This document shows positions 43,541 through 64,000 of a DNA stretch of 64,000 nucleotides, piece by piece. Origin of the DNA: Saururus chinensis (Eukaryota > Streptophyta > Magnoliopsida > Piperales > Saururaceae); NCBI GenBank assembly GCA_035235625.1, contig CP141141.1:22503968-22567967 (forward strand), in the 5' to 3' direction. Position 1 is the stretch's first letter, and each line of letters starts with the position of its first letter. The notes under the pieces are model-generated. The model did no database searches and had not been told where the DNA came from. It worked only from the letters and a program-made list of their open reading frames with translations. A program made the position numbers and the translations under genes.

Positions 43541-44095
43541 ATTTCCATTGCTGCAGGTTTCAAATCTGACCCACATTCTCATAATAAAGGGGTGCAATGC
43601 ACCAACCATAACTAAAGAAGAATAAAGGCCTACCCAGAAGGAAAATCTAAATAGCCATCCATACATTGGCAGTTTTTGGAGATGTCTCCAGAAGCATTCC
43701 CTCATTTGCCTCAAGAATCATTCCAAATGTAGGCATCTGATCCACCCTTTTCTACATTATATGGATCCATTGTGATTTTTTCAGTATGCTCATTGAAGGA
43801 AAGCTTCTCGTGCACATTCCTATCTAGACCATGAACCACAGACCAAGTGAGTAAGCCCCAACCAGGAGGACTGCATGCCAATCTACCTGATGCATCTGCA
43901 CAAAGTTAATCAAAAAAGGATTGCTAAAATAAAAGCTGAAAATTAAAGAATCGAATCAGGAATACAGTGGGTAACAACAACACAAGGGATTGAACAAGAA
44001 GTAACAATCAAACATTTATCATTCCTTTCCTAGAAATAAGCTTTTAATTAGCAATTGATAAACCATTGAGATTAGCTACGAAAACATTCCAACTT
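43541..44095. other. Unassigned DNA at the left of the gene-fragment mosaic
   Basis: On the minus strand about 45 codons are open near 43720-43870 (contains NVHEKLSFNEHTEKI), which could be another captured exon, but I do not recognise it. The rest is AT-rich non-coding DNA. Confidence 0.3.
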
Positions 44096-44139
44096 GCAAA
44101 GCTCTATCTTCAATTTCCTTCAGCACGAGATTATGATTA

Positions 44140-44213
44140 GACAGTTTTACCAAGACCCATCTCATCAGCAAGAATAACATTTGTATCGTTTCTCCAACTA
44201 CAACAAAAATTAC
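44140..44213 (-). pseudogene. SNF2/CHD1 ATP-binding exon fragment
   Basis: Minus-strand NDTNVILADEMGLGKTV, the Walker A (motif I) exon of CHD1-type remodelers. It is preceded by a TTGTTGTAG splice acceptor and then runs into stops (GKTV-stop). It is the same exon as 59125-59212, cut after GKTV. Confidence 0.75.
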
Positions 44214-44334
44214 ACAATGAGAAGCACTCAAATGCTGCAAAACAAATAACTAATTGTAATATTCAGGGTTAATTGTGATGGAAACATAAAACCTACATAC
44301 CTGTTAACAAGAAAATTCAACCCTCGAAGATGAT

Positions 44335-44440
44335 ATATTCTATTCTTTTACCTCCTTTTCTTTTTCTTTTTTTCCTTTTTTACCTTTTTTTTTTCTTTTC
44401 TTTATCTTTTTTTCCTTTTTTTTTCATTTTTTCCCTCTCT
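44335..44440. repeat. Pyrimidine tract (T with C) of the mosaic
   Basis: TTTTTCTTTTTTTCCTTTTT-type run, followed by CTTGCTTCATGAATCCCAAA. The same run-plus-flank recurs at 48455-48495, 56540-56640 and 59410-59480. Confidence 0.8.
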
Positions 44441-45505
44441 TGCTTCATGAATCCCAAATTTTCAAGGACTTGTAGACATAAAAATCAGAAATTTAAACCA
44501 AATATATTTTTATTGTAATTAGCTCATTAGCTAGGCCAATGTTTATCAAAGTTGTTCTCCATATGTCTAGGTGTTGCTCAAAGAATATGTAAAACACTAA
44601 ATATGGAAATACTTCCATCCGCATAGGGAAAAAGGGTAAGTACAAATGCTTAAAATCCTTTATTCAATCACTTGCATTTCTCATGTTGAAGCTAGAACAG
44701 CAAGCTTCCAAACATGTACACATATATACATATTTCTGGTTACAATGACTTTACAAGATTCTCAAATCATTAATTTGCATTAGATAGAAACAAAAATGAA
44801 GCAGTACCTCTAAAGAATCAGAGACCCGAGAGGTGAACTCTCTTGTTGAACGCAACGAATTGACATAGTCACTCTAGTAATAAGAGGTTTGTTGAGAGGC
44901 ACACTTGGACATTATTGTGATGTGTCTCACTACTACAGAATGTTTCATTTTCTGCGGAAATTAAAAAATAAACGGTACTTCTGAGCTGCTGGAAAAAATA
45001 GCCTGCAAATCAAGAATATTTTTTCGTTTATTTTATTAACTTCATTGAAAATAAATAGAAAATATTGAAGTAACAACACACTCTCAAGTGCTCCTACAAT
45101 CTTAAAAAGAGTTTGGCGTCCAATATTTATGGAAGCACAGTAATTAGCTAGAATATCTTTTCAATATAATCAAGGGTGTGCCATATGGTTGATAAATGCA
45201 GCCAACTCCCAAAGTTAAGAACCTAAAAATATAAAATAAGGCTACTGATTAAATAAAGTTATTTGCCTAACATAGAGAGGACCTAAAGAATTTAGAATGT
45301 CATCATATGTGGTACTAGCTGTGCAGTAGTTAGTACAAGTGATATAGGGTCTCACCTCTAGGTCTAAACGAATGCATGAAGCAGAGATCATGTGGCGGAG
45401 GTGCTCGGAGAACATTGCCCAATAGGTCCAGAAGCAAAAGACATATAGAATCAGTGTGAGATCATCAGGCGGAAGGGCTGGGATATCATCACTAGCAAGA
45501 ATTTT

Positions 45506-45645
45506 TTTTCCCCTTTTTTTTCCCCTTTTTTTTCTTTTCTCATATAAGTCATATGATGGAAATTTAGTTATTTTTCCTCCATTTCATTTTTTTCCCCTCA
45601 TTCTTTTTCCTCCTTTTTTTTCCAATGTTTTTTTCCCCTCAGAGT
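45506..45645. repeat. Pyrimidine tract (T with C)
   Basis: CCCCTTTTTTTTCCCCTTTT-type run preceded by ATCACTAGCAAGAATTTTTT; counterpart at 49605-49745 and, more loosely, 62187-62356. Confidence 0.8.
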
Positions 45646-45939
45646 AACTAAATGATCTTGCTTTATGAATGCCAAATGGTCAAGCACCTGTAGACATAAA
45701 AAAGCAAAAATTTTAACCCAGTATATTTTGATAATAATTAGCTCATATTGATTTTGAAATGCAGCCTAAAAGACAAATAGATTGGACCCAACCTCATTTG
45801 TACTTATCGTGATGACAAATTAATTAACACATGACAAAGCAATAAAGGATTAATAGATTTTCAAATTAATTCGGATCTCCAGTTCCGTTTACATCTAAAA
45901 TAAAATTCAGCATCATGAATAAGATTCACTACAACAAAT

Positions 45940-46448
45940 ATAGGCAGTATGCAATAAATCACTGAAATGACCAACCTTAGGGGCTTTAATAAGACAGGCC
46001 ATGGCAATTAAAACTAATTTGATATATCATATTTTCTTTCACTTGTCTTGGCTGATTGTCTTTGACTGAAGGACTGAACCCGCAAAGCAGCTTGGATTCA
46101 AGCAGAAGCCTGGGTAGAATTCCTCACAACAACAAGGGAGCCCCTCAGAGATAACTGATCCTCAAGCATTCTATTCATAGAAAAAATGTTTTGATTGTCC
46201 ACAATCTTTGCTTCTTCATCAAGATTGAGTGTACCAGAAACACTTTCCATTGTACCAGATTTCAGCGTCATGGAAGAAAGGTGACTGGTTAGATCTGCTT
46301 CAGCCAAATAACCAGCAAGTCCTTTATCTCCACCACTTGATGCCACATTAGCCGCTGTTTTTCCAGCTGGAAATGCTGGTGTGGGCTCATCTACGGCACC
46401 ATGAGCGGCACCTAACATAATCAGAGTAATGACAGTTTCTTCTCTGTA
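45940..46448 (-). pseudogene. CAMTA: CAMTA ankyrin/IQ exon fragment, copy 1
   Basis: The minus-strand exon opens after a TTTTTGTGTACAG acceptor at about 46446. It encodes the ankyrin and linker part of a calmodulin-binding transcription activator: REETVITLIMLGAAHGAV, PAFPAGKTAANVASS, KGLAGYLAEADLTSHLSS, then RGSLVVVRNSTQ. At 46095-46097 the expected arginine codon (RIQAA) is TGA. Beyond it AALRVQSFSQRQ is readable and then deletions follow. CAMTAs are nuclear calcium-responsive factors with CG-1, TIG, ankyrin and IQ parts; only the ankyrin-IQ piece is here. Near-identical to 50424-50773. Confidence 0.88.
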
Positions 46449-47494
46449 CACAAAAAAAGGAACAGCATATTGTGAGAATTAACCTAGTTAATTAGTTATT
46501 AAATAAATAAGGCAAAAAATCGACTTGCTTGGATAAAGCTAGGGAAAGTAGTATTAGATTGCACTTCCATCTAAAAGCCAATTACAAATGCATAAATGAT
46601 AACAAACAGAACATAATGTAATTACATACAACATAGCAGGATTACTTCTTATGAGAATCCACATGAAAGAAGAGGCACTCACCAAAAGAAACACAATCTA
46701 AAATCAAAAGACCAGATGGCTAATAATTACAATTTCTAGTATCAAATAAAGAAGTATCTTTCATGTCTTGTAAATACATATCACAGCAAAATTTTAACAG
46801 CACCTCAAAATTTGAAATACAAAAGGCCACAAACAACTTCACAATGCACCTGATGCCGCATAAATTCAAAATGTGTAAAGTTAAGCCTACTAAAGCTATA
46901 TGACTTTTATGACATCTTCTGGGTATAGAATTGCGCATTACAGAAAAGGATCTATCCTAGATCCCAGATAAAAGCTTGATTACTATGGCTTCCACATATA
47001 ATTTTACTAAGAATTGATAATAAATATTGTCACACACTAGATTACACAAAGTCCGCATCAATACTAATTAATACAATAAATCTTATCATGCACTACATCA
47101 CACAAATATAGTGTCAATATTAATAAATACAATAAATTCAGTTTCAATCTTTTAACTATCCATCAAAAGTTAGATAGCATGCAAAGAAAATCAATGATCA
47201 GAAAGTAGGAAAAGAAAAACTATATGCAGAAAAGTAGAAAAAGAGAAGCTTGTTACCCATAAAAAACATACCATCATGTCAACAAACATCATCACCAACA
47301 CAAGTAAAATGATAACTGAACTTCACAAACTTCATCACAAATTACAAGAAGGATGAACATCATAAAGTATGCAAAAAGAATGTGTCAATGATAACAAAAT
47401 ATCCTCATAGAGTCACAGAATAGACAATCAATGAACCTGCACGCGATAACCAGACAAACAATAAAAATAGCTCTGGTTAAAATTAACAAGGAGC

Positions 47495-48110
47495 AGAAAG
47501 TAGGACTAACCCCTGCAACAATAATAGGATGCATTGCCCATTCATAACCAAGTAAAGCTGCCAAGTGAATAACACCATGACCTTCGTTATCCAAAATATT
47601 AGGTCCTCGCCCTTCTTCATGGATTTTGCAAACAAGCCAGTCACGTAACTCGTCCTTCAGCAATTTTTGAATCAATTCCTCCCTAGGATTTCTCTGATCT
47701 TCCCTAACCATGTTGAAAATTTTCTCAATATCACCCCATTCAATGTCAGCATCCCTAGAGAAATCAATTTGCTTTTTGAGATTGCATTTCTCACAATTCT
47801 TTGCTGAACAAGCAAACTGCTGCTTCTCCTCTGTAGTCAAATGTAACATCTTTGCCAACCGTATCTGGAGATGCATTTCCTCTTCAAGTTCAGCTATGCA
47901 TCCCTTAGAATTGGCATAAGGTCTCTCTCTGTACTCAAACTCCCTAACCTCGCTACATGCAAAGCTTGGAGCAGGTTATATAAAATGGGACGCGTCCAGG
48001 GGGATATAGTGGAGCCTGACATCGCATAGCATTATTTGGGAGAACCTCAGCTGACACCTCAACTTCGCCAAACATACAACACCATTTCACGTGACTCGGT
48101 TGCTACTTCA
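47495..48110 (-). pseudogene. CAMTA: CAMTA TIG-to-ankyrin exon fragment
   Basis: On the minus strand, CMFGEVEVSAEVLPNNAMRC and QAPLYPPGRVPFYITC (TIG domain, about 48090-47970) lead after a frameshift into ACSEVREFEYRERPY. Then follow EEEMHLQIRLAKML, CEKCNLKKQI, EELIQKLLKDELRDWL and the first ankyrin repeat (GHGVIHLAALLGYEWAMHPI, ending near 47500). This order is exactly that of plant CAMTAs. The N-terminal CG-1 DNA-binding domain is absent and the frame is broken around 47965, so it is a pseudogene fragment. It sits upstream of the 45940-46448 exon in the right order, suggesting one captured CAMTA piece. The FRDVNGWTALHWAA segment that should join the two was not found. Confidence 0.88.
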
Positions 48111-48263
48111 GACTTCCCAAAAATGTACCACAAATTAAAACCTAAAACACAAAGTTCTCAGTTACTAAAAACAAATAATCAACAAAAATTTTCCCAATTA
48201 TGAAGGTTTGTCATCATCTAGACAAGAAATGCATACCTTCAGCATGAAATTATGATTAGACAG

Positions 48264-48336
48264 TTTTACCAAGACCCAAATCATCAGCAAGAATAACAAT
48301 TTGTATTGTTTCTCCAACTACAACAAAAATTACACA
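48264..48336 (-). pseudogene. SNF2/CHD1 ATP-binding exon fragment, second copy
   Basis: Same exon as 44140-44213, ending GLGKTV-stop with an extra inserted A (frameshift in NVILADE region). Non-functional. Confidence 0.7.
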
Positions 48337-48454
48337 GTGAGAAGCACTAAAATAATAACTAATTGTAATATTCAGGGTTAATTGTGATGGAAACACAAAA
48401 CCTTCATACTTGTTAAAAATTCAACCCTTCAAGCTGATATATTCTATTCTTTTA

Positions 48455-48495
48455 CCTCCTTTTTTTCCCTTTTTTTTTTTCATTTTTTCCCTCTC
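48455..48495. repeat. Pyrimidine tract
   Basis: Shortened counterpart of 44335-44440, with the CTTGCTTCATGAATCCCAAA flank. Confidence 0.75.
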
Positions 48496-48894
48496 ATAGT
48501 AACTGATTGATCTTGCTTCATGAATCCCAAATGTTCAAGGACCTGTAGACATAAAAATCAGAAATTTAAACCAAATATAATGTTATTGTAATTAGCTCAT
48601 TAGCTAGGCCAATGTTTATCAAAATTGTTCTCCATATGTCTAGGTATTTATCAAAGAATATGTAAAACACTAAATATGGAAATACTTCCATCCGTATAGG
48701 GAAAAAGGATAAGTACAAATGCTTAAAATCCTTTATACAATCACTTGCATTTCCCATGTTGAAGCTGGAATAAAAAGCTTCCAAACATGTACACATATAT
48801 ACATATTTCTGGTTACAACTACTTTACAAGATTCTTAAATCATTATTTTGCATTAGATAGTAACAAAAATGAAGGAGTACCTCTAAAGAATCAG

Positions 48895-48962
48895 AGACCC
48901 GAGAGGTGAACTCTCTTGCTGCACGCAACGAATTGACATAGTCACTCTAGTAATAAGAGGTT
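48895..48962 (-). pseudogene. Unidentified conserved exon fragment (also at 44820-44880)
   Basis: Minus-strand DYVNSLRAAREFTSRVSDSL followed by GAG and GTAC, looking like an exon end with donor. The copy at 44820-44880 reads the same apart from two residues. I cannot name the source gene. Confidence 0.35.
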
Positions 48963-49604
48963 TGTTGAGAGGCACACTTGGACATTGTTGTGATGTGTCT
49001 CGCTCCTACAGGATGTTTCAATTTATGCGGAAATTATAAAATAAAAAGTACTTCGAGCTACTGGAAAAAATAGCTTGCAAATCAAGAATATTTTTTCGTT
49101 TATTTTATAAACTTCATTGAAAATAAATAGAAAATATTGAAGTAACAACACACTCTCAAGTGGTCCAATCATTCATAGAGTATTGATATCCATTCAGGTT
49201 AGTACAATCTTAAAAAAAGTTTGGCGTCCAATATTCATGCAAGCACAGTAATTAGCTAGAATATCTTTTCAATATAACCAAGGGTGTGTCATATGGTCAA
49301 TAAAAGCAGCCAACTCCCAAAGTTAAGAGCCTAAAAATATAAAATAAGGCTACTGATTAAATAAAGTTATTTGCCTAATATAGGGCGGACCTAAAGAATT
49401 TAGAATGTCATCATATGTGGTACTAGTTGTGCAGTAGTTAGTACAAGTGATATAGGATCTCACCTCTAGGTCTAAACAAATGCATGAAGCAGAGATCACG
49501 TGGGGGAGCGGTTGGGAGAACATTGCCCAATAGGTCTAGAAGAAAAAGACATATAGAATCACTTTGAGATCAAGAGGCGGAAGGGCTGGGAGATCATCGC
49601 TAGC

Positions 49605-49745
49605 AAGAATCTTTTTTTCCCTTTTTTTCCTTTTTTTCTTTTATCCTTTCTTTTCTTTTTTTCTTTTCTCCTATAACTTATATGATGGAAATTTTGTTCT
49701 TTTTTCTCCTTTTCATTTTTTATTCCAATGTTTTTTTTCTCTCAT
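49605..49745. repeat. Pyrimidine tract
   Basis: Counterpart of 45506-45645, preceded by ATCGCTAGCAAGAATCTTTT. Confidence 0.8.
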
Positions 49746-50168
49746 AGTAACTGAATGATCTTGCTTTATGAATGCCAAATGTTCAAGCACTTGTAGACAT
49801 AAAAAAGCAAAATTTTAAACTCAGTCTATTTGCATAATAATTAGTTCATATTGATTTTAAAATGCAGCCTAAAAGACAAATAGATTGGACCCAACCTCAT
49901 GTGTACTAGTCATGATGACAAATTAATTAACACATGACAAAGTAATAAAGGATTAATATATTTTCAAATTAATTCAGATCTCCAATTCCTTTCATATCTA
50001 AAATAGAATTCAGCATCATGAATAAGATTGATACTACATCATAAATTTACCTGCTCTTTGAAAATTCTTGCTGTCAGTAAAGTTCTATTGACAGCTTTTT
50101 TCTGCACCTTAGGACAGAAAGTAGATCCAATTCATCATGAGAGGACTTCTATATCAAATTCAAATTAA

Positions 50169-50774
50169 TTAAATAGAAAATAATACCTGAATTTTGACAA
50201 TACGGTTGCGCATCTTCAGAAACTCCCTTCTCCCTTTCCAACTACGACATTTCTGTTGGATCCTCACAGCTGTAGTATGCAATGAATCCCTGAAATGACC
50301 AACCTTAGGGGCTTTAATAAGACAGGCCATGGCAATTAACTCATTTGATATTTCAGATTTTCCTTCACTTTTCTGAGCTAATTGTCTTTGAATGAAGGAC
50401 TGAACCCACAAAGCAGCTTGGATTCAAGCAGCAGCCTGGGTAGAATTCCTCACAGCAACAAGAGAGCCCCTCAGAGATAACTGATCCTCAAGCATTCCAT
50501 TCAGAGAAATAATGTTTTGATCATCTACAATCTTTGCTTCTTCATCAAGATTGAGTGTACCAGAAACACTTTCCATTGTACCAGATTTCAGCGTCATGGA
50601 AGAAAGGTGACTGGTTAGATCTGCTTCAGCCAAATAACCAGCAAGTCCTTTATGTCCTCTACTTGATGCCACATCAGCCGCTATTTTTCCAGCTGGAAAT
50701 GCTGGTGTGGGCTCATCTACGGCACCATGAGCGGCACCTAACATAATCAGAGTAATGACAGTTTCTTCTCTATA
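50169..50774 (-). pseudogene. CAMTA: CAMTA ankyrin/IQ exons, copy 2
   Basis: 50773-50427 repeats the ankyrin-linker exon of copy 1 (REETVITLIMLGAAHGAV ... SLRGSLVAVRNSTQAAA). TGA at 50424-50426 replaces the expected arginine codon of RIQAA, as in copy 1. The frame then continues without other damage: IQAALWVQSFIQRQLAQKSE, PKVGHFRDSLHTTAVRIQQK, CRSWKGRREFLKMRNRIVKIQ. These are the two calmodulin-binding IQ motifs. A donor-like end follows at about 50186. The single stop makes this CAMTA piece a pseudogene. Confidence 0.9.
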
Positions 50775-51794
50775 CACAAAAAAAAGAACAGCATTCTGTG
50801 AGAATTAACCTAGTTAATTAGTTATTAAATAAATAAGGCAAAAACTTGACTTGCTTGGATAAAGCTAGGGAAAGTAGTATTAGATTGCATTTCCATCTAA
50901 AAGCCAATTACAAATGCATAAATGATAACAAACATAACATAATGTAATTACATACAACATAGCAGGATTACTTCTTATGAGAATCCACATGAAAGAAGAG
51001 GCACTCACCAAAAGAAGCACAATCTATAATCAAAAGACCAGACGGCTAATAACTACAATTTCTTGTATCAAATAAAGAAGTATCTTTCATGTCTTGTACA
51101 TACATATTACAGCAAAGTTTTAACAGCACCTCAAATTTTGAAATACAAAACGCCACAAACAACTTCACAATGCATCTAATGCCGCATAAATTCAAAATGT
51201 GTAAAGTTAAGCCTATTGAAGCTATATGACTTTTATGACATCTACTGGGTATAGATTTGCACATTACAGAAAAGGGTCTATCCTAGATCCTAGATAAAAG
51301 TTTGATTACTAAGGTTTCCACATAATTTTACTAAGAATTGATAATAAATATTGTCACACACTAGATTACACAAAGTCAACATCAATACTAATTAATACAA
51401 TAAAATCTTATCACGCACTACATCACACAAATATAGCGTCAATATTAATAAATACAATAAATTTGGTTTCAATCTTTTAACTATCCATCAAAAGTTGTAT
51501 AACGTGCAAAGAAAATCAATGATTAGAAAGTAGGAAAAGAAAAACTATATGCAGAAAAATAGAAAAAGAGAAGCATAAAATATATACCATCATCGCCGAC
51601 ACAAGTAAAATGATAACTGAACTTCACAAGCTACATCACAAATTACAAGAAGGATGAACATCATAAACAATGAAAAAAGAATGTGTCACTGATAACAAAA
51701 TAACCTCATAAGTCACAGAATAGACAATCAACGAACCTGCACGTGATAACCAGACAAACAATAAAAAAGCTCCTGTTAAAATTAACAAGGAAAT

Positions 51795-52440
51795 ATTGTC
51801 ACTAGAAAAGATACACCAAACATAATAGTGTATATATTAAAAGAAAATATAACAGATAAATTAGACTAAAAAAAAATAAAAGCTGCTACTGAAGGCATAC
51901 CTTCAGTCACATCTAAGAGAAGTAATAGAATCTATGATTGAAGGCTTTTTCTCTTTCAACTTTTCCTATGCAAGAAACAGAAATCATGTGAGCAGCTAAC
52001 CATATTACTAGGCAATGGTAAGAGCAAGCACAATCACCAAATATATGACAATATAAGAAGAAATCCTAGGAAATGATAAAACTCTGAGACTTAGATCTAT
52101 AAAATATTTCCATTAATATAAGCAAGTTTTCACTCTAAAATGGGGAAAAAAACTGGGCTTCCGATATTAATAAAAATATTACAACCATTTACACATAATT
52201 ATCAAACTTCATAGAGCATAAATGGTAAAATATATGCTACCATATAAAGGTGTAAACTTAGTGTACAATTATCAAACTTCTAGAGCATAACCGTTTACAC
52301 ATGCCAAAAATCAAAGTAGTAAGTAGGTGATTTGTGTGTGTCAAAAACCAGCTGCGTAGTCAGAGGCTCAGGAAAACAAAACATTAAAAAGTGTCTGGTC
52401 ATAATTGGATCACAAGGCACATCATATACAAATCTGTGTT
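51795..52440. other. AT-rich spacer, nothing recognised
   Basis: No domain or repeat boundary that I can support. A short minus-strand open stretch near 51905-51965 (KEKKPSIIDSITSLRCD) ends at a possible donor and may be another exon scrap. Confidence 0.3.
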
Positions 52441-52494
52441 AACACTCCAAATTAAAGGATGCCAAAAAAAGAAAAGAAAAGAAAAAGGAGGATG

Positions 52495-52617: not shown

Positions 52618-55600
52618 TGTAACATCCAGGAATGTTCTAAATTCCCGAAGTCGTCCATGGGGAAATTAGGGTGTAGGACCCCTTGATATTCTCATGCGAA
52701 TAACATGATCATCAGTTGGAATTGGTGGCTTAATTGTATATGGATGGAAAATAGACAGAAAGAGCTTCGAAACGCCACCAAGAACGTGCAAAATAGAGTT
52801 CGGATGAGGGAGATACGATTGTTCGAAGTTGAACATATCGTATAGGGCCCGTTTTCCCGAATTAAACATGCAACTGGGCCGTTTAAGTCATTTTGCGGGC
52901 CCGATTATTTAGCATTCCGAAATTATAATTTAAGTGGCCTATTTGGGGGAGTTTTGGGCAAAATTCCTCAGGGGATTAAGAGCCCTAATCCTATGCCTAT
53001 AAAGAGGAATTAATTAGGGCTTTTTGAGGGAGCTTAGGACGAGTAGGAGGAAATTCTCCAGCGAGACTCCGGCGAATCGTTTGCGGTGATGGATCGACAA
53101 CAAATCGGCAATTAAGGTAAGATCATCTAATAAACTTGATTATGTGATGAAGAGGTTTAGGCGTGTAATCGTTTCAATTCTTAATTAGAACATTAATCCT
53201 TTAATTAATTAAGAAGAGTACGTCGGAGTTATGTAACAGTAACCGGATTTGGACTCCGGCCGGCAAGCACCGCCTGTTGGCGGTGTGGACTAGGTCCCTT
53301 AGATTCGCCGCCAGGCAGCAAATTAGACAGGCCTTGCCCCCGACTCAGTTCGTGATGGTTTCTGCTCCCTCCTGCTGTTTTGCTCGCAGGCGGACGTGGA
53401 CGAAATCGGCGGATTTGATGTCAGTCGGCGGCCACTGGTTTGAAGCGAGGCTAGGCCCGTCAGATTCGCCGCTTGGAGATGATCTGACCAGGCCCGGCCT
53501 TGCTCCTGGTCATGGTGGCCGTCGTGCTCACCAGCGATCGGAAATTTTAGTTTGTCTCTGTATAAATTCTGGATCTGCGCGCATCGGCCGTGGCTTTCAA
53601 ATCCGGCCTTCTTCCGCCGGCGAAATTCTTATGATTGTGATTAGATCGCCGGGCCAGAGGCTAGAGGGCCAAGCCAGCAGCGGCTGGATTCGATCCAGCC
53701 ACCGCCTGCAGCCCTGCGGGCGTCTTCCCGGGGAAGACGACCCGCAGGCAGGTCTACGGGCCCGGCCCATTCTAGGCTGGAACTGCAGACCCGGCTCAGG
53801 TCGGTTTTAATAATAAAAAACAATAACTCCCATTGAACCGGGTCCGGTTCAGGAGGGTTTAAACTTTGAAAAAATTTTGTAAAAATCCTCAAGTACCCCA
53901 AGAAGTGTGGGAGTATTCTGAGCAAGTTTCAGGCCCGGAAAAAATCCCAGGAACTATAAAATGACCCTTTTACCCCTTATAGTTTAATTATCATGCGAAA
54001 ATCACTTACCCGATTTAGGGGCTCCGGTTCAGGAGCCTATGAGTTGATTTAATATTTGGGAAAATTCTCAGTGAGATTTTAATGCGTAAATTAACTATAG
54101 GCCAAATCGTATAGTGAGGAAAAATCCCAGTGAGGGGGTAATTGACCATTTTGTCCCTAAGTTTAATCGTAAACCGTTAAGCCAACCTGGGTCGGTTCAA
54201 GGGGTTCACGACCCCGTCACATGCCAGGAAAATTACACAGAGTCCATGAAGGCCAGTAGTACCCTTGAGTTGAATTTTGGACCCATTGGATGTAATTAAG
54301 GCCTTAAACCAAATGATAGAAATACCCCTTAGAGTGGACCCGCTCACATTCGTGTGAATGGAAGCGTGAGTCGGTCTGAGAGTGGAGCCTTGTGAGAGGT
54401 CAATGACTTAAATCAATAGATGGGCAGTAAAATGACTAGAATGACCAAGGGAGGGTATCATACCCTAGGTGGTAAAATTACCCTAACGCCTTAGGGGCAA
54501 TATATTCTATTCTGTCGAAACGGATGACATAGTGAATCAAGAGTTAGGGTACCCTATAAATAACTTCAAAAGGAAGGAGCATGACCAGTAAGTGGCACGA
54601 AGACCCTGTTGGATCGCAATGTCATGAGAAATAAGGGGTGGAACCCTAATTCTCAGGTTTAAAGCAGCGCATTTTACGTGTCTACAATCGAGTGCATCGA
54701 TCGACTAGAGTGTCACATATGTAACTCGCGGGATGCGTTAGAGTTGTTACACTCTTGGGCTTGAACTAGTTAAGCCCTAGCCCTGCAAATGAGTGCAACA
54801 GGCCTTTATTCATTCTTTACGCATTAGTGTGAATGTATGTTATTTATGTTGATTATGCCGGTGCATGTTTTTATTGTTGATACTTTAATTGATATCGGTA
54901 ACTTAAGATTAATGAGATTAATCAAGAGACATGGGTTGCTGTTGGTTTGGAGGGAGAACATCTAATCAAGATAAAGACTAAAATACCCTCAATAGGGTTT
55001 AGGACCGGTTCATGGATTTGAATGGGGCCCTGACATAGAATTTTACCTTGGTTAATGAACCAAGGATGGTTATGGGATGTTCTTTGAGTCATAGCTCAGT
55101 GGATGAGCTATTTATTGGGCCGATTCACAAGGTGAAGAGGACCCAAATGGTTGAGCGAATACTTGACTGGATAGAAATAATCTAGTCTAAGATTCAGACG
55201 TTTGGCAGAGTCAATGGTCATAAAGACCTGAGGCTTCTATGGATAATGTTGGAGATTGCGATATGCTTCTTCATCGCCACGACGGTTTGGGTATTGACCA
55301 TAGGGTCTTTACCGCGGGTCTCTCGCAGGTCTTCCCAGGACTATTTAGTACGTACGAAAAGCTGAGTTGTATGAGCATCATGGAAGGCTTGTGCTTCTCG
55401 CCAATTTGTGTCCATGAGCATAGTTGGGATCCTCTTCTTCAGATTCGTGGCAAGCTATTGAGAGCCCTGGGGATTTGGGTCAAGCTGCTGTTAAGCAGTC
55501 TACTCCAAGGTTGGAGTACTTTGTTGGGGATTTCTCGAGGGGCGAGTCATCTCTGAGTTATAGATTTGATAGTATTAATTATCGAACAAGGGATGCGAGA

Positions 55601-56271
55601 TAATTAATAACATTGTTTGTTGTTGCTTGATAATTAGACAAGTGGAACGATTAAATGACTTACTAAAATGTAGGTTAAATATACTTAAGCATTGCATGTG
55701 TGGTGCTATGTTTATTAGGATAGAGTAGTTTCTAGGCAGAACTACGTCTGGATCCGATCTTGTTGAAAACATTGGAGATGTTGTCTAATGAGTATGTAGG
55801 CAACTAACATCGAGTGATGTTAGCCCGATCCAAATAATATTAATAAAACCTTTTGTCCTTTAGAAGCTCTTCTCCTAAAGGCGAAGATGCTCCATTGTGG
55901 TTGTGGTTGTTGTTTGGTTTGCTTTGTTGCAGGTTTTCCAGGCGACAACGAGTGAGACCAAGATTGACGCGTATAGGATGAAGTTTCTTCGTGTCTGCAA
56001 CTCTGGTACGTAAGTGTACCTTTAGCGTGAGAGTCAACTTGTTATTTATTTTTAGACAGATAACGAACTTGTACTTAGATGGATGAGCTGTTCTTTATGA
56101 ATTTTTAGACGCATAATAATATTATACGATTTAATATTCGTATTTGTGAACCCCAGTTATCATGACCTGGATATTTAATCGAGTTGTTTGTTTTGTGTTT
56201 AAAGAAAAAAAAATTTCGCTACTTACCGTTTGTGCTATTTAAAAATGTTTTTGAAAACCCAGGTCGTGACA
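52618..56271 (+). mobile_element. Family-C solo LTR with TSD AATCG
   Basis: Starts TGTAACATCCAGGAATGTTC and ends AAAACCCAGGTCGTGACA; 3654 bp, flanked by AATCG at 52613-52617 and 56272-56276. It matches the inverted family-C LTRs at 26596-33126 and 41486-42190. TATAAAG at 52998-53004 is a plausible LTR promoter. A GC-rich stretch (53220-53800) has open frames with no domain. No gag or pol, hence solo. Confidence 0.88.
52998..53004 (+). promoter_or_regulatory. TATA box of family-C LTR
   Basis: TATAAAG in CCTATGCCTATAAAGAGG, about 380 bp into the LTR, equivalent in position to the family-B box relative to its LTR start. Confidence 0.5.
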
Positions 56272-56335
56272 AATCGTCCACAGTCGGGCTCTCTTTGAAG
56301 AAATGGGCCACGTTCTCGCCCAACTACAACAAAAA
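56272..56335 (-). pseudogene. 5' half of the reading frame split by the LTR, fused to an SNF2-exon flank
   Basis: Minus-strand LGENVAHFFKESPTVDD, in frame with 52495-52617 across the target site. Upstream (above 56318) it joins the TTGTTGTAGTTGG acceptor flank of the SNF2 exon module, so this piece is itself a fusion. Confidence 0.5.
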
Positions 56336-56539
56336 TTACTCAGTGAGAAGCACTGAAATGCTGCAAAACAAATAACTGATTGTAATATTCAGGTTTAATT
56401 GTGATGAAAACACAAACCTACATACTTGTTAACAAGAAAATTCAACCCTTCAAGCTGATAATCACTAAGTTTACCTCCCTTCAATCACTCAGGCCCTGTC
56501 AGCCTTTCTCATATAAGTTCTATGTTGGATATTCTATTC

Positions 56540-56640
56540 TTTTACCTCCTTTTCTTTTTCTTTTTCTTTTTTCTTTTTTTCTTTTTCTTTTCTTTTTTGT
56601 CTTTTTTTCCTTTTTTTTCATTTTTTTCCCTCTCATAGTA
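56540..56640. repeat. Pyrimidine tract
   Basis: TTTTCTTTTTCTTTTTCTTT-type run followed by CTTGCTTCATGAATCCCAAA, as at 44335 and 59410. Confidence 0.8.
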
Positions 56641-56880
56641 ACTGATTGATCTTGCTTCATGAATCCCAAATGTTCAAGGACCTGTAGACATAAAATAGCA
56701 AAAATTTAAACCCAATCTATTTTGATAATAATTAGCTCATATTGATTTTGAAATGCGGCTTAAAAGACAAACAGAGTAAAAGTAGAAAGTAAAGAGTAAT
56801 TAACAATAAAGTTATTTTTTCAGTTGTCAAGACATTTCAACAAGTAAATAAAATAGAAGAATATGATTGAGAACAAATAC

Positions 56881-56985
56881 CCTAGGACATAGATATCAGC
56901 AGGGGGAGAAGTGTGAAGCTAGTCCTCAAGATTCAAATACCTTGGAGGAGATTTCTCACCCCCATTCCATGTCGCCACAAAAACT
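56881..56985 (-). pseudogene. Type I inositol polyphosphate 5-phosphatase exon
   Basis: The minus-strand exon from an AAATCCAG acceptor to a GGGTATTTG donor reads RVFVATWNGGEKSPPRYLNLED, stop, LHTSPPADIYVLG (key motif ATWN). This is the start of the plant 5PTase catalytic region (ATWNVGGKSPP...DIYVLGFQEIVPL). The conserved Trp codon after LED is TAG. A second copy lies at 62514-62617. The enzymes remove the 5-phosphate of inositol phosphates; here only a broken exon remains. Confidence 0.8.
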
Positions 56986-57777
56986 CTGGATTTACAAAAG
57001 AAAGAAATAATGAAACAAAGAGAAACAGTCATCGTCCAGTTATTCCACATTAAAATGCAATATACTTATATAGTACCGGTGCTCTTGCACATCAATGACT
57101 TATTGCACATCTAAATCGATCAAGCCACTCTGAACTCTATGTGGATTATTGTTAACTAATCCCTTTGTAGAAAAAGGGTAAAAAAATAAAGTATTAGAGA
57201 ATTCAAGATAACGGAAAGGTTAGTAGGAATGTGGTCCGGGGGAGGAAAGAGTGTGTGATGGAAAACCTGTTTTACTTTATTTTTCTTCAGAATGCATGCT
57301 TCCCTCTCAAAGAAGCTGGTCCTTGCCCATTCAACATCACCACCTGAAAAAGATAGCCCATAAAGTTGAATAAAGCTGGTGATTAATCACTGTGGTGTGC
57401 ATCGAACCCATGATTTGATTTCTTTTTTTTTATTGTAACACAATGATTTTATTTCACACAGTGAAAAAACAGAGAGAGATAGAGAGATCAAGGGAAAGAA
57501 AGAGCAGATTGAAACCAACTAAAAGAAACAATAGAATCGATACACGAAAAAAAATCCTCTCCTTTCAAGATGAGGACTGTGGAATCAACATGCTAAAAAA
57601 TGGGTAGTCAAAATATGAAATGATGAAGAAACAAAAGACAAAAAATGTCAAGGTGAAATGATATAAAAATTTGAGAAAAGGGGATTAAAAAAATATATAC
57701 AGGGGGCGAAACAAATTGTACATGGAAAACATGAAAACACTAACAATTGTTGTAATTGGAATTTGTAGGAAAACAAA

Positions 57778-57808: not shown

Positions 57809-57841
<33 letters not shown>

Positions 57842-57842: not shown

Positions 57843-57866
57843 AAGTATAAATGAGGCAATACAAAC

Positions 57867-59212
57867 CTGATTCCGTCTAACTCCTTTGTTCAAGTCATGA
57901 AAATTGCGCTCTAAAATCCATTTATAATACCTTGTCATATACAAAATATAAATACAAGTCAATCAATATGATATGAATATATGCTATAATAAGACTACAA
58001 CAAAGTAATAAGAACTTACTGCTTCTAGAGAGGAGACATCTCGACTCGAAGAATGCACTCAATTTTTGGAGGCAAAGATTTCTCTACACCCGTCTCAGAA
58101 TATGTTTCCAAGCTAAACATGAATCAAGTAAGAATTTCAGTAGTAATCAGGCAAATAAAAATTAAAATATTCTTAAATTTCCTTACACCCACTAAAGCAA
58201 AAAAGATTGGAAGGGGGCCATCAAATATACTTCTATTTCATTAAATGAGCTCAAATTCTTGTATTTCACAGCAAAGTCATCTTTGTTCTTGAACTTTTCT
58301 GGGTCAAGAAAATGTAATAAAGCCCTATGACACAATAGGAAAAGTTATTTAGCAAACATGTGCACAAGAATTGAGCCATATTATATAAATATTTGAGCCA
58401 AGTGCAATTACCATAACTCCTCAACACTGTTTTGCAAAGGAGTATTAGTGATATGCAACTTGTTTTTGGTGCTAAATTCCTGCTTGCCTTTTTTGGTGGG
58501 AGGGGGGAACTGATTGTTAAAACAAAATCAAGTTTTGTCCTTGTAAACAAAATAACTTAATTTCCCCAAACTCTCAGTAAAATGTTGGGAGTAAAACCTA
58601 CCAAAAGAGTCGTATATAGTGAAGCTTCACAATTCTTGAGCCTATGTGCTTTGTCAACCTATGATCTTGGAAAACAAAGTTTTATCCTTCAATAATACTT
58701 CATATGTGGTCAACAAAGAATCAAACTTAGTCTGCCTGTCATTTTTCTTTTTAGAGAAAATGTCAAAAACTATTGACAGATCTGTAGCCACAACAAAATA
58801 TTAAGTCAGCTAATACTGCTAAAATAAATTCTTTAAATACATTGAACTCGGAATAGAACTTTGCACAGTTAAAAAAAAGCTACAAGCAGGACTACCTCTC
58901 CGCTGGCATAGTTGCCAACATATATATCTACATTCATTTCAGGGTGCCACTTCTTAAATTCCTTGGCCTAGTTTGACAATGTAGACAATGGTACGACAAC
59001 AAGAAATGGCCCATGCCTTTGTTGTGCATGCTGTTATTTAGATAAAGAAGAACTGTTTAAAAACTTTTTAAGATGAAAAACAAAGAATTGTCCATAATTA
59101 GTGATAAAAAAAAGGCCACAGTACTTGTAAAAAGCCCAACATGGAAACTGACTGAATAGTTTTACCAAGACCCATCTCATCAGTAAGAATAACATTTGTA
59201 TTGTTTCCCCAA
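57867..59212 (-). pseudogene. CHR5: CHD1/CHR5-type chromatin remodeler, SNF2 ATPase fragment of seven exons
   Basis: Exons in correct order on the minus strand. E1 59212-59125: WGNNTNVILTDEMGLGKTIQ, Walker A. E2 59030-58896: GPFLVVVPLSTLSN, stop for Trp, AKEFKKW. E3 about 58775-58602: KFDSLLTTYEVLLKDKTLF, then a deletion in the DEAH-box region. E4 about 58482-58412: TKNKLHITNTPLQNSVEELW. E5 about 58325-58232: LLHFLDPEKFKNKDDFAVKY. E6 about 58110-58020: HILRRV, deletion, EKSLPPKIECILRVEMSPL, stop for Gln. E7 57930-57867: YYKWILERNFHDLNKGVRRN. Splice phases still match (E6 ends CA, E7 starts G, restoring Gln). CHD1 proteins slide nucleosomes using this motor; here chromodomains and the helicase C-terminal half are missing and several exons are broken, so it is a gene fragment. 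Confidence 0.88.
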
Positions 59213-59409
59213 CTACAACAAAAATTACAGTGAGAAGCACTGATATGCTGCAAAAAAAAAACTAATTATAATATTCAGGTTTAATTGTGATGGAAACACA
59301 AAACCTACATACCTGTTAACAAGAATATTTAACCCTTCAAGCTAATAATCACGAAGTTTACCTCCCTTTAATTAGGGCCCAGTCAGCCTTTCTCATATAA
59401 GTTCCAATT

Positions 59410-59480
59410 CTATTCTTTTACCTCCTTTTCTTTTTCTTTTTTTTTCTTTCTTCTCCTTTTTTTTCCCCTCTTATAGTAAT
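59410..59480. repeat. Pyrimidine tract
   Basis: CTTTTTCTTTTTTTTTCTTT-type run with the CTTGCTTCATGAATCCCAAA flank. Confidence 0.8.
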
Positions 59481-59799
59481 TGATTGATCTTGCTTCATGA
59501 ATCCCAAATGTTCAAGGACATTTAAACCAAAAATATTTTTATTGTAATTAGCTCATTTTGATTTTCAAATGCAGCCTCAAAGACAAAGTGAGTCATCTAT
59601 AATGGTCACCATTCAGGTTGGATCCAACCCAATGTGTACTAGATGAACTCATTGAAATTGGATAAGCCAATCCTTGTGATGACAAATTAACAAATTAATT
59701 AACACATGACAAATAATAAATGATTAATAGAATTTATAAGAGGAAATAAGGAAAAACGAAAGCTAAAGAGATTGAGTTATTATACCCCACAAAAAACAC

Positions 59800-60328
59800 A
59801 ACACCAAAAAATTTATAACACAAGAATCTAGCAGTACTTGGACGAGAATTAAGGCCTTGAATTCCAAAGAAACAAGATGCCATTTCAATGTTGATGAATT
59901 ATGTTGACTGCTTGTAAGTGCAACAAAAGTTGAATACCAGCAAGTATTAAGTGTGGTATTTTCTTGTGCTCCAATGAGATGATGAAGATATGAAACACCA
60001 GCATTTAAACACCCCCTACAACTCTCCAGGGATGGAGGTGGTATTTGGCAATTTTCAGTGACTTCTTCAAATTTTGGAGTTTGCAACATTTGAGCAACAG
60101 ATGTTCTGCCTTTGCAATGATATGTCACAGGAATTTTTGTTCCAAGTCCACAAAATAAAGTTGCATTAGGACTAATTCCATAAAAAATTTAAAGTTTCTG
60201 AGATAGACGTAAGGCAAGTCTCAGATAACTTAGAAGGAACACCAAGGTTTCCCATGCACTTTCCTTGATCTCCTTGGTCGAAAATGCCAAAGTATAATTA
60301 GACCCATTCATATCCAGGGGACATTCTG
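59800..60328 (-). pseudogene. Cysteine-containing ectodomain exon, possibly SPARK-like
   Basis: After a TTTTTTGGCAG acceptor at about 60329 the minus strand reads ECPLDMNGSNYTLAFSTKEI. A frameshift follows near 60190 (TCLTSISETLNF in one frame, stop in the other). Then come YGISPNATLFCGLGTKIPVT, SVAQMLQTPKFEEVTENCQI and CRGCLNAGVSYLHHLIGAQE. The regularly spaced cysteines, CPLD start and Asn-X-Ser/Thr sites suggest an extracellular domain such as the SPARK domain of GPI-anchored proteins and receptor kinases, but this assignment is from memory of the family and is uncertain. The frameshift makes it a pseudogene fragment. Confidence 0.4.
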
Positions 60329-60334
60329 CCAAAA

Positions 60335-60970
60335 AAGAACACCCAGAATCAATAGCTAACTAAATTAAATAATTACTTTAATAGAAAATGATAAGGGTTA
60401 CTTAATGCTGAAAATTCACAATGGATACTAGGAGTGCACCTCGTGCAAGGTGAAGTCTACCAGTACTTTTAAAGAAATAGATGAATGACAGACTCCTAGG
60501 TTATATTAAATAAATATAGTTGGCACCTTAAAGCAACTTTAAAAACAAGATTTTAACAAGCAGTCCCTGCATCATATGGGGACTTCTCTTTTCTAGAGCT
60601 TTATTATCCCATATTTTGTCATGCTTATAAATACAAATGGACTTACACACCGTAATGTGCATCCCGCACGATGTCCCACAAACAATTTCCGCTCTCCCAC
60701 AGTATAAAAAAGAGCAATATCCAATAAATATGTCCCCAAATGCCAGACATTTAAAAGTACAAAATGGATGAAAGGCGTGATACTTTGTACTTAATCTTGC
60801 AAAAAGTATGTGATAGTCACAACAAAAGAGAGCTAATAAGGGGGGGCTTGAAGTTTGCTTCAAATGAGTAAAGGTCTGAATGAGTCTGCTCAGTAACTTG
60901 ATCACAGAATAAAGATGGAAGGAGAATCAGACATTGTCTCCAAGGATTTAGTGGATAGCAAAACAACAAT
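60335..60970. other. Intergenic or intronic spacer, nothing recognised
   Basis: A minus-strand open frame at 60528-60905 is Cys/Phe-rich without a family signature; not called. No repeat boundaries seen. Confidence 0.35.
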
Positions 60971-60977
60971 CTTGCAT

Positions 60978-61085
60978 ACTCCCTTCGTCCCCATTAATAG
61001 CTCCATTTAGTTTTTTAAAAGGAACTAAAATTGGTTTATTTTGGAAAAACTAAATAGAACTATTAATATTGGCAATATTTTCCAT
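60978..61085. mobile_element. Stowaway/mariner-like MITE remnant
   Basis: TACTCCCTTCGTCCCCATTAATAG carries the Stowaway terminal motif CTCCCTCCGTCCC next to TA. Then come inverted TTTAG-TTTTT / AAAAACTAAAT stretches around 61010-61055. The distal terminal repeat is not clear. Confidence 0.5.
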
Positions 61086-61192
61086 TTAACAATGATATAT
61101 CAGAACTTTGACATATTTACTGCTTTTCCCATATTACAATGATTGTAAAATACATAGATTGTGAAGAAATGTTTTCATAATCAGATATATAC

Positions 61193-61633
61193 CTAGGTTC
61201 AATCTCCTCAACACGCTCAGCAGCACAAAATTTAATTCTCCACATCCCCATATTTTCCTAGCTCCTTGTAAACAGCCCTTCAAGAAGAAAAAGAAAGAGG
61301 AATTTAACACTTCAATGGCAAGAAAGGATATATACTGCAAAAGGCTAGTAAAAAATATAAAACAGAAGTTCAGACCATATATACACACATGTTCAGTGGC
61401 ACCAATGTTAGACAAGAATAAGTTAGGCAAACACTATAATAAGTTGCAAAATCCTATGCATCAAACAAAAAGGCAGTGAACAAAGTTATTTCTATATACT
61501 TTTACCAATCACTTCAAGCCTGAAGTAAAAATCAAAATGACGCATACCTGGCATGCTTGAAATTCATTAATGCAGTGTCCCGGTCCATACCTTGCTCAAA
61601 CAACAACATCCCTTTCATATAAGAGGCATATGC
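61193..61633 (-). pseudogene. SRP68: SRP68 fragment, two exons
   Basis: Exon 61633-61548 (after CTGCACATATG-type TGTGCAG acceptor, ending CCAG/GTATG) reads AYASYMKGMLLFEQGMDRDT followed by ALMNFKHAR. Exon 61277-61193 reads RAVYKELGKYGDVEN, then stop/frameshift, CAAERVEEIEPR, donor GTATAT. The two join through a split Arg codon. This matches the part of signal recognition particle subunit SRP68 with AYASYMKG--LFEQ and CRERVEELEP. SRP68 acts in the cytosolic SRP that targets proteins to the ER; this piece is broken and cannot function. Confidence 0.72.
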
Positions 61634-61639
61634 CTGCAC

Positions 61640-62180
61640 ATATAAAGTATTATCATAAACAAATAAAAGGACCAACAATTAACATTCACAAACATAAGTA
61701 ACATAAATAAAGTCCAAAAATCCACTACTAATAAAGACATGATAAGCAGATTTCAGAACAAAGTATTCAAAGTTAATAACAATGAGAAACTAAATGAAAG
61801 AAATGATGATTAACATAATTAAAACGTACATCTATACACCATAATTTTGTATTCTAGCAAAAAATTTACAAAGTTCTACAGCATACCCACTTTTAAATAA
61901 TGCATGGGCCAATATTTAAGCATTCCCTAATGCTGGACCAATTTAAAAGCTCCTACCATATTAGCAAGGAAACCTTGATGGAAAAATAAAGGTTCTGAAA
62001 TCACCTTTGACGGTACACAAATGAGAAAAAAGTGTGGTCAATTTGATTGCATTTTTCAATCTACCGATAAAATGAACAAGTTGGCATACACTTGGACCCT
62101 CACTCCAACTGCTCCATAAACAAAAGACAAGCATAATCACTGTGAGATCATGAGGTAGAGGTGCTGGGAGAACATCTCTA
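61640..62180. other. AT-rich spacer
   Basis: No recognised coding block. 62080-62165 (minus ILVRDVLPAPLPHDLTVIML) parallels ILASDDIPALPPDDLTLI at 45430-45500 and the 49560 region, so it is another member of the mosaic's repeated flanks. Confidence 0.4.
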
Positions 62181-62186
62181 ACAAGA

Positions 62187-62356
62187 ATCTTTTTTTCCAT
62201 TTTTTTTCTTTTTTCCATTTTTTCCTTTTTCCTTTTCTTTTTTCCTTTTTCTTTTCTTTTTCTTTTTTTTCTTTTTTTCCTTTTTTTCTTTTTTTCCTTT
62301 TTTCTTTTTTTTCTTTTTTTCTTTTTTTCCTTTTTCCTTTTTTTTTCTTTTTTCAT
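62187..62356. repeat. Long pyrimidine tract
   Basis: About 170 bp of T runs broken by single or double C. On the other strand it gives Lys-rich open frames, which are artefacts. Confidence 0.9.
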
Positions 62357-62373
62357 ATAAGTCATATGAAACC

Positions 62374-62617
62374 TTTCTAGCATTTAGAGGCACAATTTCT
62401 TGAAACCTGAAAAGTAAAAAGTAAAGAGTAATTAACAATAATGTTATTTTTTTCAGTTGTCAAGACATTTCAACAAGTAAATAAAATAGAAGAATATGAT
62501 TGAGAACAAATACCCTAGGACATAGATATCTACAGGGGAAAAGTGTGAAGCCAGTCCTCAAGATTTAAATACCTTGGAGGATATTTCCCGCCCCCATTCC
62601 ATGTCGCCACAAAAACT
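62374..62617 (-). pseudogene. Type I inositol polyphosphate 5-phosphatase, two exons
   Basis: Exon 62617-62514 reads RVFVATWNGGGKYPPRYLNL then EDWLHT, with a 1-bp deletion before DIYVLG. Exon 62406-62374, after a TTTTCAG acceptor, reads GFQEIVPLNAR. The split Gly codon between them fits. Unlike the copy at 56881-56985, Trp is intact here but the acceptor and frame are damaged. After NAR the sequence changes to CATATAAG and the pyrimidine tract, so the catalytic residues further along are missing. Confidence 0.8.
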
Positions 62618-63020
62618 CTAGATTTACAAAAGAAAGAAGTAATGAAACAAAGAAAAACAGTTACCGTCCAGTTATTCCACATTAAAATGCAATATACTTA
62701 TATAGTACTGGTGCTCTTGCATATCAATGACTTGTTGCACATCTAAATCAATCAAGCCACGCTGAACTCTACATGGATTATTGTTAACTAATCCCTCTGT
62801 AGAAAAGGGTAAAAAAATAAAGTATTAGAGAATTCAAGATAACGGAATTCTTTACACCCACTAAAGCAAAAAAGTTTGGCAAGGGGGCCATTAAATATAC
62901 CTCTATTTCATTAAATGAGCTCAAATTCTTGTATTTCACAACAAAGTCATCTTTGTTCTTGAACTTTCTGGGTCAAGAAAATGTAATAAAGCCCTATGAC
63001 ACAATAAGAAAAGTTATTAA
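62410..63020. repeat. Duplicate of 56770-57210 plus 58175-58345 with the middle deleted
   Basis: 62410-62855 follows 56770-57210. At ATAACGGAA the match jumps to TTTACACCCACTAAAGCAAA (58183) and continues to about 63020 (CCCTATGACACAATA-GAAAAGTT). The piece contains a second copy of CHD1 exon E5 (LLHFLDP..FKNKDDFVVKYKN, 62985-62890) with a 1-bp deletion. Confidence 0.85.
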
Positions 63021-63515
63021 ACAACACAGACACATGCATTCCAAATATACAAATGACAAATTGTAGGAATGTGTCACCTCACCCACTCAATGCCAACTAC
63101 CATGACCTAACAAAGTAAATATAACTCTTTTGCTGAAAAATCTATGAAATTTAATATGGAAAGGGGTCAGATGAGTGTAAACTACCACTGTCCAACGCTG
63201 GCAAAACCCAGTTTTAAAACGGACATGAATGATGTGGTGACAAGAATAATGATTGACATAATTACACCACTTATCTTTGGAAGAACATGAGAAGTTTACC
63301 ATCATACCCCTACAGCCCAAAAACAAAAAAAATAGACAGGAAAGAAAAGGAAAAAAACAAGACTCTTCATTGCAACTAAAATAGATTGACGGCTTCAGAA
63401 AAAATCATACAATTTACAGGGCTCGTGAAGCTTCAAATAAACCCTGAATATCCGTCAAGTTTACAGCTAAAAAGTAGAAGTGTGGGAAAAAAAAGATAAA
63501 TGAAGTATAAGTGCT
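63021..63515. other. Spacer, nothing recognised
   Basis: No domain, repeat or RNA feature that I can support. Confidence 0.35.
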
Positions 63516-63655
63516 TACCTCTATATCCACAATTGTCCTTTTTTTTTTGCCTTGAGCTATCATATGCTTCAGCCACATTAGATCCTGTATCTTGATTAAA
63601 ATAAATAGACTGGTCCAATAAGGCCGGAATTCCAGCAAGACCTCTAAGCATTGTT
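63516..63655 (-). pseudogene. Unidentified exon fragment
   Basis: The minus strand reads LRGLAGIPALLDQSIYFNQD then TGSNVAEAYDSSRQKKK and reaches a GAGGTAAGC donor at about 63519. Open, exon-like composition and a good donor, but I do not recognise the family. Confidence 0.4.
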
Positions 63656-63829
63656 ACCTAGCCTGTTGACTGAAGGTGAAATCCCATTTGAACTGAGTGT
63701 GTTGCGGTCTTTCAAAAATTCTAGAGCATAAGAAACCTAAAAGAGATGCATTAAACAATAATGTGTCAGAATCATCCATTAGAAAAGAAAATTTAAGAGA
63801 AATAATAGACAAATGCATGAGCCAAATAG

Positions 63830-64000
63830 GCAAAGGTACTTGCTTGGTCATCAACATGTTCAAGCTAACCAGCTCAACTCCTAACTCTGGCTTATCAAAC
63901 TGAATCCTGCACTTGTTGCAGTCAACAGTCAATACATTGCTATCATGGAGTTCTATTGTCTTGGGATGCCAAGCAATAACTCGCTGTCCAACTAACAATG
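63830..64000 (-). pseudogene. ALY: ALWAYS EARLY (ALY/LIN-9-like) exon fragment
   Basis: The minus strand reads [20 protein letters not shown], then [20 protein letters not shown], ending at a GTTAGC donor-like site. This resembles the plant ALY region with VGQRVIA-HPKT-E-HDG-VLTVD and QFD-PELGVEFV. ALY proteins are LIN-9 homologues working with MYB and E2F partners on chromatin. The fragment continues beyond the right edge, so it may be more complete than it appears; disrupted neighbours make a fragment more likely. Confidence 0.6.

Follow-up and report, generated by a model that had tools for sequence, protein, structure and literature searches.

Joined fragments of unrelated genes recur in one polarity across the Saururus chinensis genome

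Background

Inserts that bring fragments of unrelated genes together have been described from maize and soybean. The maize helA Helitrons, as set out in PMC3288121, hold 0-12 gene fragments, were built by stepwise capture, and show fragmented homology between related elements. The soybean Pack-CACTA element Tgm-Express1 brings together, within a single insert, exons and introns from five unrelated genes (PMC1947982), and chimeric gene structures with templated filler DNA at the join are reported for non-homologous end joining (NHEJ) in maize (PMC2686159). Here we describe a mosaic of gene fragments in 64,000 nucleotides of contig C2 of Saururus chinensis (C2:22,503,968-22,567,967, hereafter the window; "home" positions above 64,000 continue the same numbering past its end). 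The mosaic occupies window positions 43,521-64,000 on the minus strand and runs on to 64,422 outside the window. Its fragments come from CAMTA, a CHD1/CHR5-like remodeller, an inositol 5-phosphatase, SRP68, a SPARK protein, and an ALY-like gene.

The mosaic is similar to the maize multi-gene-fragment Helitrons in its unrelated gene fragments, stepwise capture, fragmented homology, and lack of a terminal inverted repeat (TIR), but unlike those described it is larger, has internal tandem arrays and few common ends, and is without demonstrated TC/CTRR-hairpin ends (PMC3288121). It likewise shares with Tgm-Express1 the presence of exons and introns in one insert, although without demonstrated paired CACTA termini (PMC1947982). 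It is also like the maize NHEJ chimeras in having templated filler at a join and a chimeric gene structure, but the fillers described there reach at most about 130 bases, whereas the mosaic consists of kilobase blocks at many loci (PMC2686159). As far as these accounts go, the mosaic is a large, readable example of a class already known from plant genomes and not a new kind (PMC3288121, PMC1947982, review PMC13317346).

Gene-fragment mosaics supply material from which chimeric genes and small RNAs can arise, and they are a cause of annotation error through false CAMTA, CHR5 or SRP68 paralogues. A large family with readable joins and a known source gene can show how a mosaic is built and the reason for its single polarity.

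Results and Discussion

Layout and identity of the fragments

Genomic pieces of unrelated genes have been copied as DNA (CAMTA being the gene tested) and joined in one polarity, with tandem duplication and internal deletion, and joined blocks are found again on seven contigs. That the mosaic exists, that its CAMTA pieces were copied at the DNA level, that it recurs, and that it keeps one polarity are established; its carrier is not proven. Read along the minus strand from high to low coordinates, the ALY-like exons (to 63,480) come first, then a CHR5-like exon, 5-phosphatase exons, and an A/G-rich tract. After this first tract come SRP68 exons, SPARK exons, a second tract, and about eight CHR5-like exons, followed by 5-phosphatase exons again, a third tract with a CHR5-like fragment, and a fragment of a gene of unassigned family, gene X. 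Two tandem runs of CAMTA pieces, with further CHR5-like exons and tracts, complete the order as far as the left edge at 43,521, beside a retroelement-like stretch. The right edge is at 64,422. Within the mosaic, 44,117-47,492 and 48,236-51,791 form a direct tandem duplication with 87-93% identity in gapped pieces.

The first-pass annotation of this DNA had described a continuous exon array with intact splice sites and a recurring flank. The flank, CTTGCTTCATGAATCCCAAA, does recur, with six occurrences in the window at three or fewer mismatches, whereas 100 shuffles gave 0.02 on average. AG or GT lies at, or at most one base from, 23 of 24 exon edges, which were located with motifs chosen by eye so that the count is not blind; the ALY edge at 63,866 is the exception. 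The interval 52,618-56,271, however, does not consist of exons but is a solo long terminal repeat (LTR) of 3,654 bp, TGTAACATCC...GTCGTGACA, with a 5-bp target duplication, AATCG, on both sides. The sequences to its left and right are continuous in the copies on C5, on C6, and at C2:27.46 Mb, those on C5 and C6 having also been checked by letters. The window copy of the mosaic looks non-coding because its exons contain stops and frameshifts.

Pfam searches matched SNF2 (PF00176, 1.5e-7, window 59,101-59,265) and SPARK (PF19160, 1.3e-5), and, under the Pfam cut-off, SRP68 (PF16969, 0.0022) and the 5-phosphatase (PF22669, 9.2e-5). The 5-phosphatase peptide, assembled by hand from exons of both window copies, also matched OCRL-1 in the PDB (5.4e-5). 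We take the SNF2-type fragment to be of the CHD1/CHR5 subtype, and the fragment at 63,480-64,000, which matched nothing in Pfam or the PDB, is presumably ALY. The CAMTA exons of the mosaic had no CAMTA domain match in Pfam; their assignment to CAMTA comes from the source gene, which also matches CG-1 farther upstream on that strand. The A/G-rich tract was considered as part of CHR5 and rejected, since in an isolated CHR5 relative the match to the query does not begin until position 110, past the tract.

Copies elsewhere and single polarity

Searches of the whole genome (516 Mb, 11 contigs), with the window included, gave at least 14 matches to a CAMTA exon, 29 to SRP68, 13 to the 5-phosphatase, 33 to ALY, and 27 to SPARK; for the CHR5-like sequence, a short query gave at least 24 and a long one at least 66. 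Blocks from more than one source stand together in part-read copies at C1:6.68, C2:27.45-27.47, C4:35.48, C4:39.78-39.80, C5:45.87-45.89, and C10:6.74 Mb and near the start of C6 (~20-49 kb); an eighth further copy, near the start of C8 (~5-82 kb), was seen through genome searches only. The comparison set was 230 kb, made up of the 30 kb that follow the window on its right and of stretches from eight further loci, one of them the CAMTA source. The window, C5, C6, and C2:27.46 Mb keep the same block order over long runs; the other copies have in common with them shorter parts or tandem repeats of these parts. The C5 copy aligns with the window in one 4,872-bp match at 94%.

With the solo LTR masked, 422 of 422 matches (E<=1e-10) had one orientation per locus at eight loci, namely seven copies and the CAMTA source. 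These matches overlap and repeat and are not independent events; the independent number is the six source genes in the window, for which a single strand has a chance of 1/32 if orientations are independent. All 52 matches inside the extended region of the window, the trivial self-match included, are direct.

The dense mosaic copies on C6 and C8 lie less than 100 kb from the contig starts and are perhaps subtelomeric.

Source genes

The CAMTA pieces match C2:59,088,760-59,093,763 at 91.7-94.8% (BLAST), and CG-1 matches with long open stretches kept are found on the same strand at C2:59,094,882-59,096,148. The CAMTA source gene is thus located at C2:59.09 Mb. Compared with it, stretches that we marked as exons are 92.4-96.3% identical and the remainder 95.0-96.5%; CAMTA is the sole case in which exons and introns were compared. 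Exon and intron identity are thus alike, which indicates copying at the DNA level with no visible constraint, and retroposition of mRNA is excluded by introns kept at parental identity.

The CHR5-like block (query 110-1,631) matches C2:53,185,438-53,187,014 at 89%, and among nine CHR5-like matches longer than 1,100 bases (window included) this is the only one without the A/G tract. We take C2:53.19 Mb to be the likely CHR5-like source. Isolated matches to the 5-phosphatase (C8:548,885-549,312, 93%) and to SPARK (C1:29,884,838-29,885,584, 84%) suggest C8:0.55 Mb and C1:29.9 Mb as their likely sources, and C8:21.648-21.651 Mb is a possible candidate for ALY. No source was found for SRP68. With likely sources on C1, C2, and C8, the source genes are therefore not neighbours. 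The first-pass annotation is borne out on this point, as it is in its claims of retained introns and of fragments of about six unrelated genes on the minus strand, the latter through the SNF2, SPARK, SRP68, and 5-phosphatase matches and the CAMTA source gene. The parent-gene search and intron comparison that it had proposed gave the CAMTA results above.

Divergence

Kimura two-parameter (K2P) distances to the CAMTA source are 0.041-0.052 in four pieces; the distance between the window and C5 is 0.047 over 2,585 sites, and that between the two tandem units of the window is 0.054. Mean divergence is 0.051 from parent to copy (10 copies) and 0.067 from copy to copy (45 pairs), which is near star-like. 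In a tree of the ten copies and the CAMTA source, from which six shorter matches were omitted, the inner branches are very short and supports are 0.63-0.93. The CAMTA source falls among the copies, next to C5, and the two window units form a group. Capture and dispersal may fall within one short period, given the short inner branches and near star-like divergence. At assumed rates of 6.5e-9 to 1.3e-8 substitutions per site per year, the divergence would correspond to about 1.6-4.2 million years.

Origin of the mosaics

Our tentative preference, with a probability of about 0.42, is for a dispersed family of gene-fragment mosaics made by Helitron-like capture and spread, the termini having since been lost. 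The process behind assembly and spread would have been of copy type and would have kept polarity; rolling-circle transposition of the Helitron kind, capturing fragments stepwise, is its likeliest form. End-joining repair and later insertions would then have stripped the copies of their termini. A rolling-circle element is favoured by the single polarity together with the copy-type spread. On the 5' TC and the insertion between A and T expected of a Helitron the edges are divided: the C5 edge reads A/TC, and so do those of C1 and C4:39.78 Mb if the join is moved three and one bases earlier, respectively; the edges of C10 (the same edge as C4:39.78 Mb), the home copy, and C4:35.48 Mb do not have it.

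Several observations weigh against a Helitron-like origin. The Helitron carrier proposed in the first-pass annotation was not supported: no 3' end common to the copies (hairpin, CTRR, then T) survived at block edges in a scan of nine merged regions for perfect stems of at least 6, the outer flanks of the longest copies lying outside the scanned sequence. One candidate, TGCCACTGGTGGCA...CTAA/T in the C4 and C2:27.46 Mb copies, was rejected because the likeness continues past the motif and also occurs at home 78,303. The edges read, six 5' and four 3', differ between copies except for one 5' edge common to C4:39.78 Mb and C10; the window and C10 copies end 14 bases apart within CAMTA. At C1:6,676,294-6,682,932 the copy is a piece of 6.6 kb from the interior of the mosaic, inserted in a (TA)n microsatellite that flanks it on either side. 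Neither internal tandem duplications nor a length of more than 20 kb would be usual for a Helitron.

The mostly unshared ends, the (TA)n, and the templated filler favour repair, and the mosaics could have arisen with no transposon at all, by serial segmental duplication during double-strand-break repair (microhomology or polymerase-theta end joining, or template switching), with unequal crossing-over producing the tandem arrays. We regard this as a serious possibility, though still a tentative one. Filler DNA is documented at plant breaks (PMC2686159), and in the C4 and C10 copies the CAMTA 13,082/10,402 join contains about 11-13 bp of filler repeating ACTCATCATGG from just upstream. Short shared letters are seen at three joins: AAAA(C)TGTC between a CHR5-like and a CAMTA exon, TGGG between a CHR5-like intron and gene X, and GCATG between the right edge (64,422) and an AG-rich array; this microhomology comes from a handful of joins without statistical control. 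Random joining should, however, yield inversions, and there are none among the polarity matches; nor does it readily account for six source genes on one strand or for the edge common to C4:39.78 Mb and C10. The two processes may also have been combined, an element capturing and spreading the fragments and repair then breaking them up.

A transposon-free chain could keep polarity if synthesis switched templates along the coding strand of transcribed genes and the product then spread by renewed copying to many sites in one burst, the A/G-rich coding-strand tracts being the switching points; we consider this unlikely. It is also improbable that the mosaic lies inside a large CACTA element. A CACTA right end does survive at home 66,895, beyond the AG-rich array that adjoins the mosaic, with a CACTACAACAAAA terminus and TAGCGACGC-type repeats at 66,632-66,895, and a damaged left end near 20,219 stands beside similar repeats; a soybean CACTA element with five gene fragments, introns included, offers a precedent (PMC1947982). 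The left end is not a proven partner, however, because the bases beside 20,219 and 66,895 differ, contrary to a target duplication, and the 94 kb of sequence read revealed no intact left end. The other copies read had neither the exact terminus nor subterminal repeats, giving a few matches with two mismatches.

The search for inverted repeats also bears on TIR carriers in general, including the Pack-MULE that the first-pass annotation had suggested beside Pack-CACTA. No inverted repeats with arms of at least 18 bases surrounded the mosaic in six of eight copies (the window and seven others), the C2:27.46 Mb copy having almost no left flank and the outer flanks of the longest copies lying outside the sequence examined. 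Only (TA)n was found around the C1 copy, and the C10 copy has four pairs of flanking repeats, whose left arms lie 2.5-5.4 kb beyond its edges and whose right arms lie 0.3 or 5.4 kb beyond them. The pairs within the window (41.5-42.1 and 55.7-56.3 kb) are LTR-related, with one arm in the later solo LTR. We therefore reject a TIR carrier of the mosaic copies, and a Pack-MULE or similar element is very improbable despite a transposase-like reading at 39.4-41.4 kb (39,380-41,480), which we take to be of MuDR type. Ordinary neighbouring genes or a misassembly can hardly be entertained, since the CAMTA source and the CHR5 relative are 5.9 Mb apart, the 20 kb around the CAMTA source matches only the CAMTA pieces of the mosaic, and the presence of mosaic blocks in seven other copies argues against a chance misassembly at the window.

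Feature coordinates and neighbouring sequence

Table 1. Features of the mosaic and its left border (window coordinates; identities are to the positions given).
Feature	Position	Strand	Remarks
Retroelement-like stretch bounding the mosaic on the left	41,485-43,520	minus	LTR-related to ~42,197 (41,485-42,197, inverted match to 55,567-56,272 at 81%); tandem repeats to 43,523
CAMTA fragment, exon and intron	43,521-44,148	minus	94.6% to C2:59,091,767-59,092,390; K2P 0.052
CHR5-like exons LNFLVN and GLGKT with intron between, joined in-exon to CAMTA	44,134-44,335	minus	
A/G-rich tract, purine on coding strand	44,340-44,434	minus	
Recurring flank	44,438-44,527	minus	looks like exon of some gene and intron end
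CAMTA exons and intron, tandem copy 1	45,944-46,744	minus	94.1% to C2:59,088,947-59,089,747; exon 92.8-94.5%, intron 95.7%
CAMTA fragment, parental order broken	46,743-47,198	minus	92.8% to C2:59,093,321-59,093,762
CAMTA exon	47,496-48,239	minus	94.8% to C2:59,090,532-59,091,277
CHR5-like exon/intron fragment	48,253-48,439	minus	
CAMTA exons and intron, tandem copy 2	50,109-51,070	minus	93.5% to C2:59,088,760-59,089,747; exon 95.9-96.3%, intron 95.3%
CAMTA fragment	51,069-51,524	minus	91.7% to C2:59,093,321-59,093,763
Gene X fragment	51,525-52,617	minus	longer in C4:39.78 Mb and C10 copies
Solo LTR, later insertion	52,618-56,271	not assigned	AATCG at 52,613-52,617 and 56,272-56,276
CHR5-like fragment and A/G-rich tract	56,320-56,600	minus	
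Inositol 5-phosphatase fragment, copy 1	56,778-57,216	minus	94% to 62,410-62,847
CHR5-like remodeller fragment, ~8 exons with introns	57,850-59,371	minus	exons read by eye; SNF2; 89% to C2:53,185,438-53,187,014
A/G-rich tract and recurring flank	59,372-59,520	minus	
SPARK-protein fragment	59,763-60,360	minus	PF19160, 1.3e-5; isolated relative C1:29.88 Mb
SRP68 fragment with introns	61,066-61,758	minus	PF16969, 0.0022
A/G-rich tract joined to 5-phosphatase exon	62,180-62,370	minus	
Inositol 5-phosphatase fragment, copy 2	62,410-62,847	minus	isolated relative C8:548,885-549,312, 93%
CHR5-like exon, second copy	62,848-63,028	minus	94% to 58,179-58,358
ALY-like fragment (presumed name)	63,480-64,000	minus	mosaic goes on to 64,422

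Arrays of AGAGAG alternating with GCACGCGTGC-like palindromes occur at home 64,415-66,580, 82,500-84,000, and 87,800-90,900, and also beside or within the C5, C4:39.8 Mb, C6, and C10 mosaics. They were rejected as common termini because gene-like sequence follows them in C6 and C4. Further CACTA right termini of the CACTACAACAAAA type, with TAGCGACGC subterminal repeats, are found at window 33,831 (one mismatch) and 35,998.

The C6 copy has a further same-strand fragment at locus positions ~5,300-8,150, from exportin-1 (CRM1 repeat, 8.3e-4, under the cut-off), and the same interval holds what is presumably the end of a STRUBBELIG-like kinase, also on the same strand; the C5 version of the kinase end gave no Pfam match. 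Plus-strand gene-like fragments lie at home 77,234-82,500, next to another AG-rich array, and include what we take to be a PHD-finger-like repeat; those at 77,234-78,882 are common to C2:27.46 and C4:39.8 Mb. Elsewhere in the window, a remnant at 8,900-11,700 is presumably of a Copia retroelement, and the minus strand at 17,591-18,463 has an open frame of 290 amino acids, which we take to resemble a DUF26/Gnk2 cysteine-rich protein.

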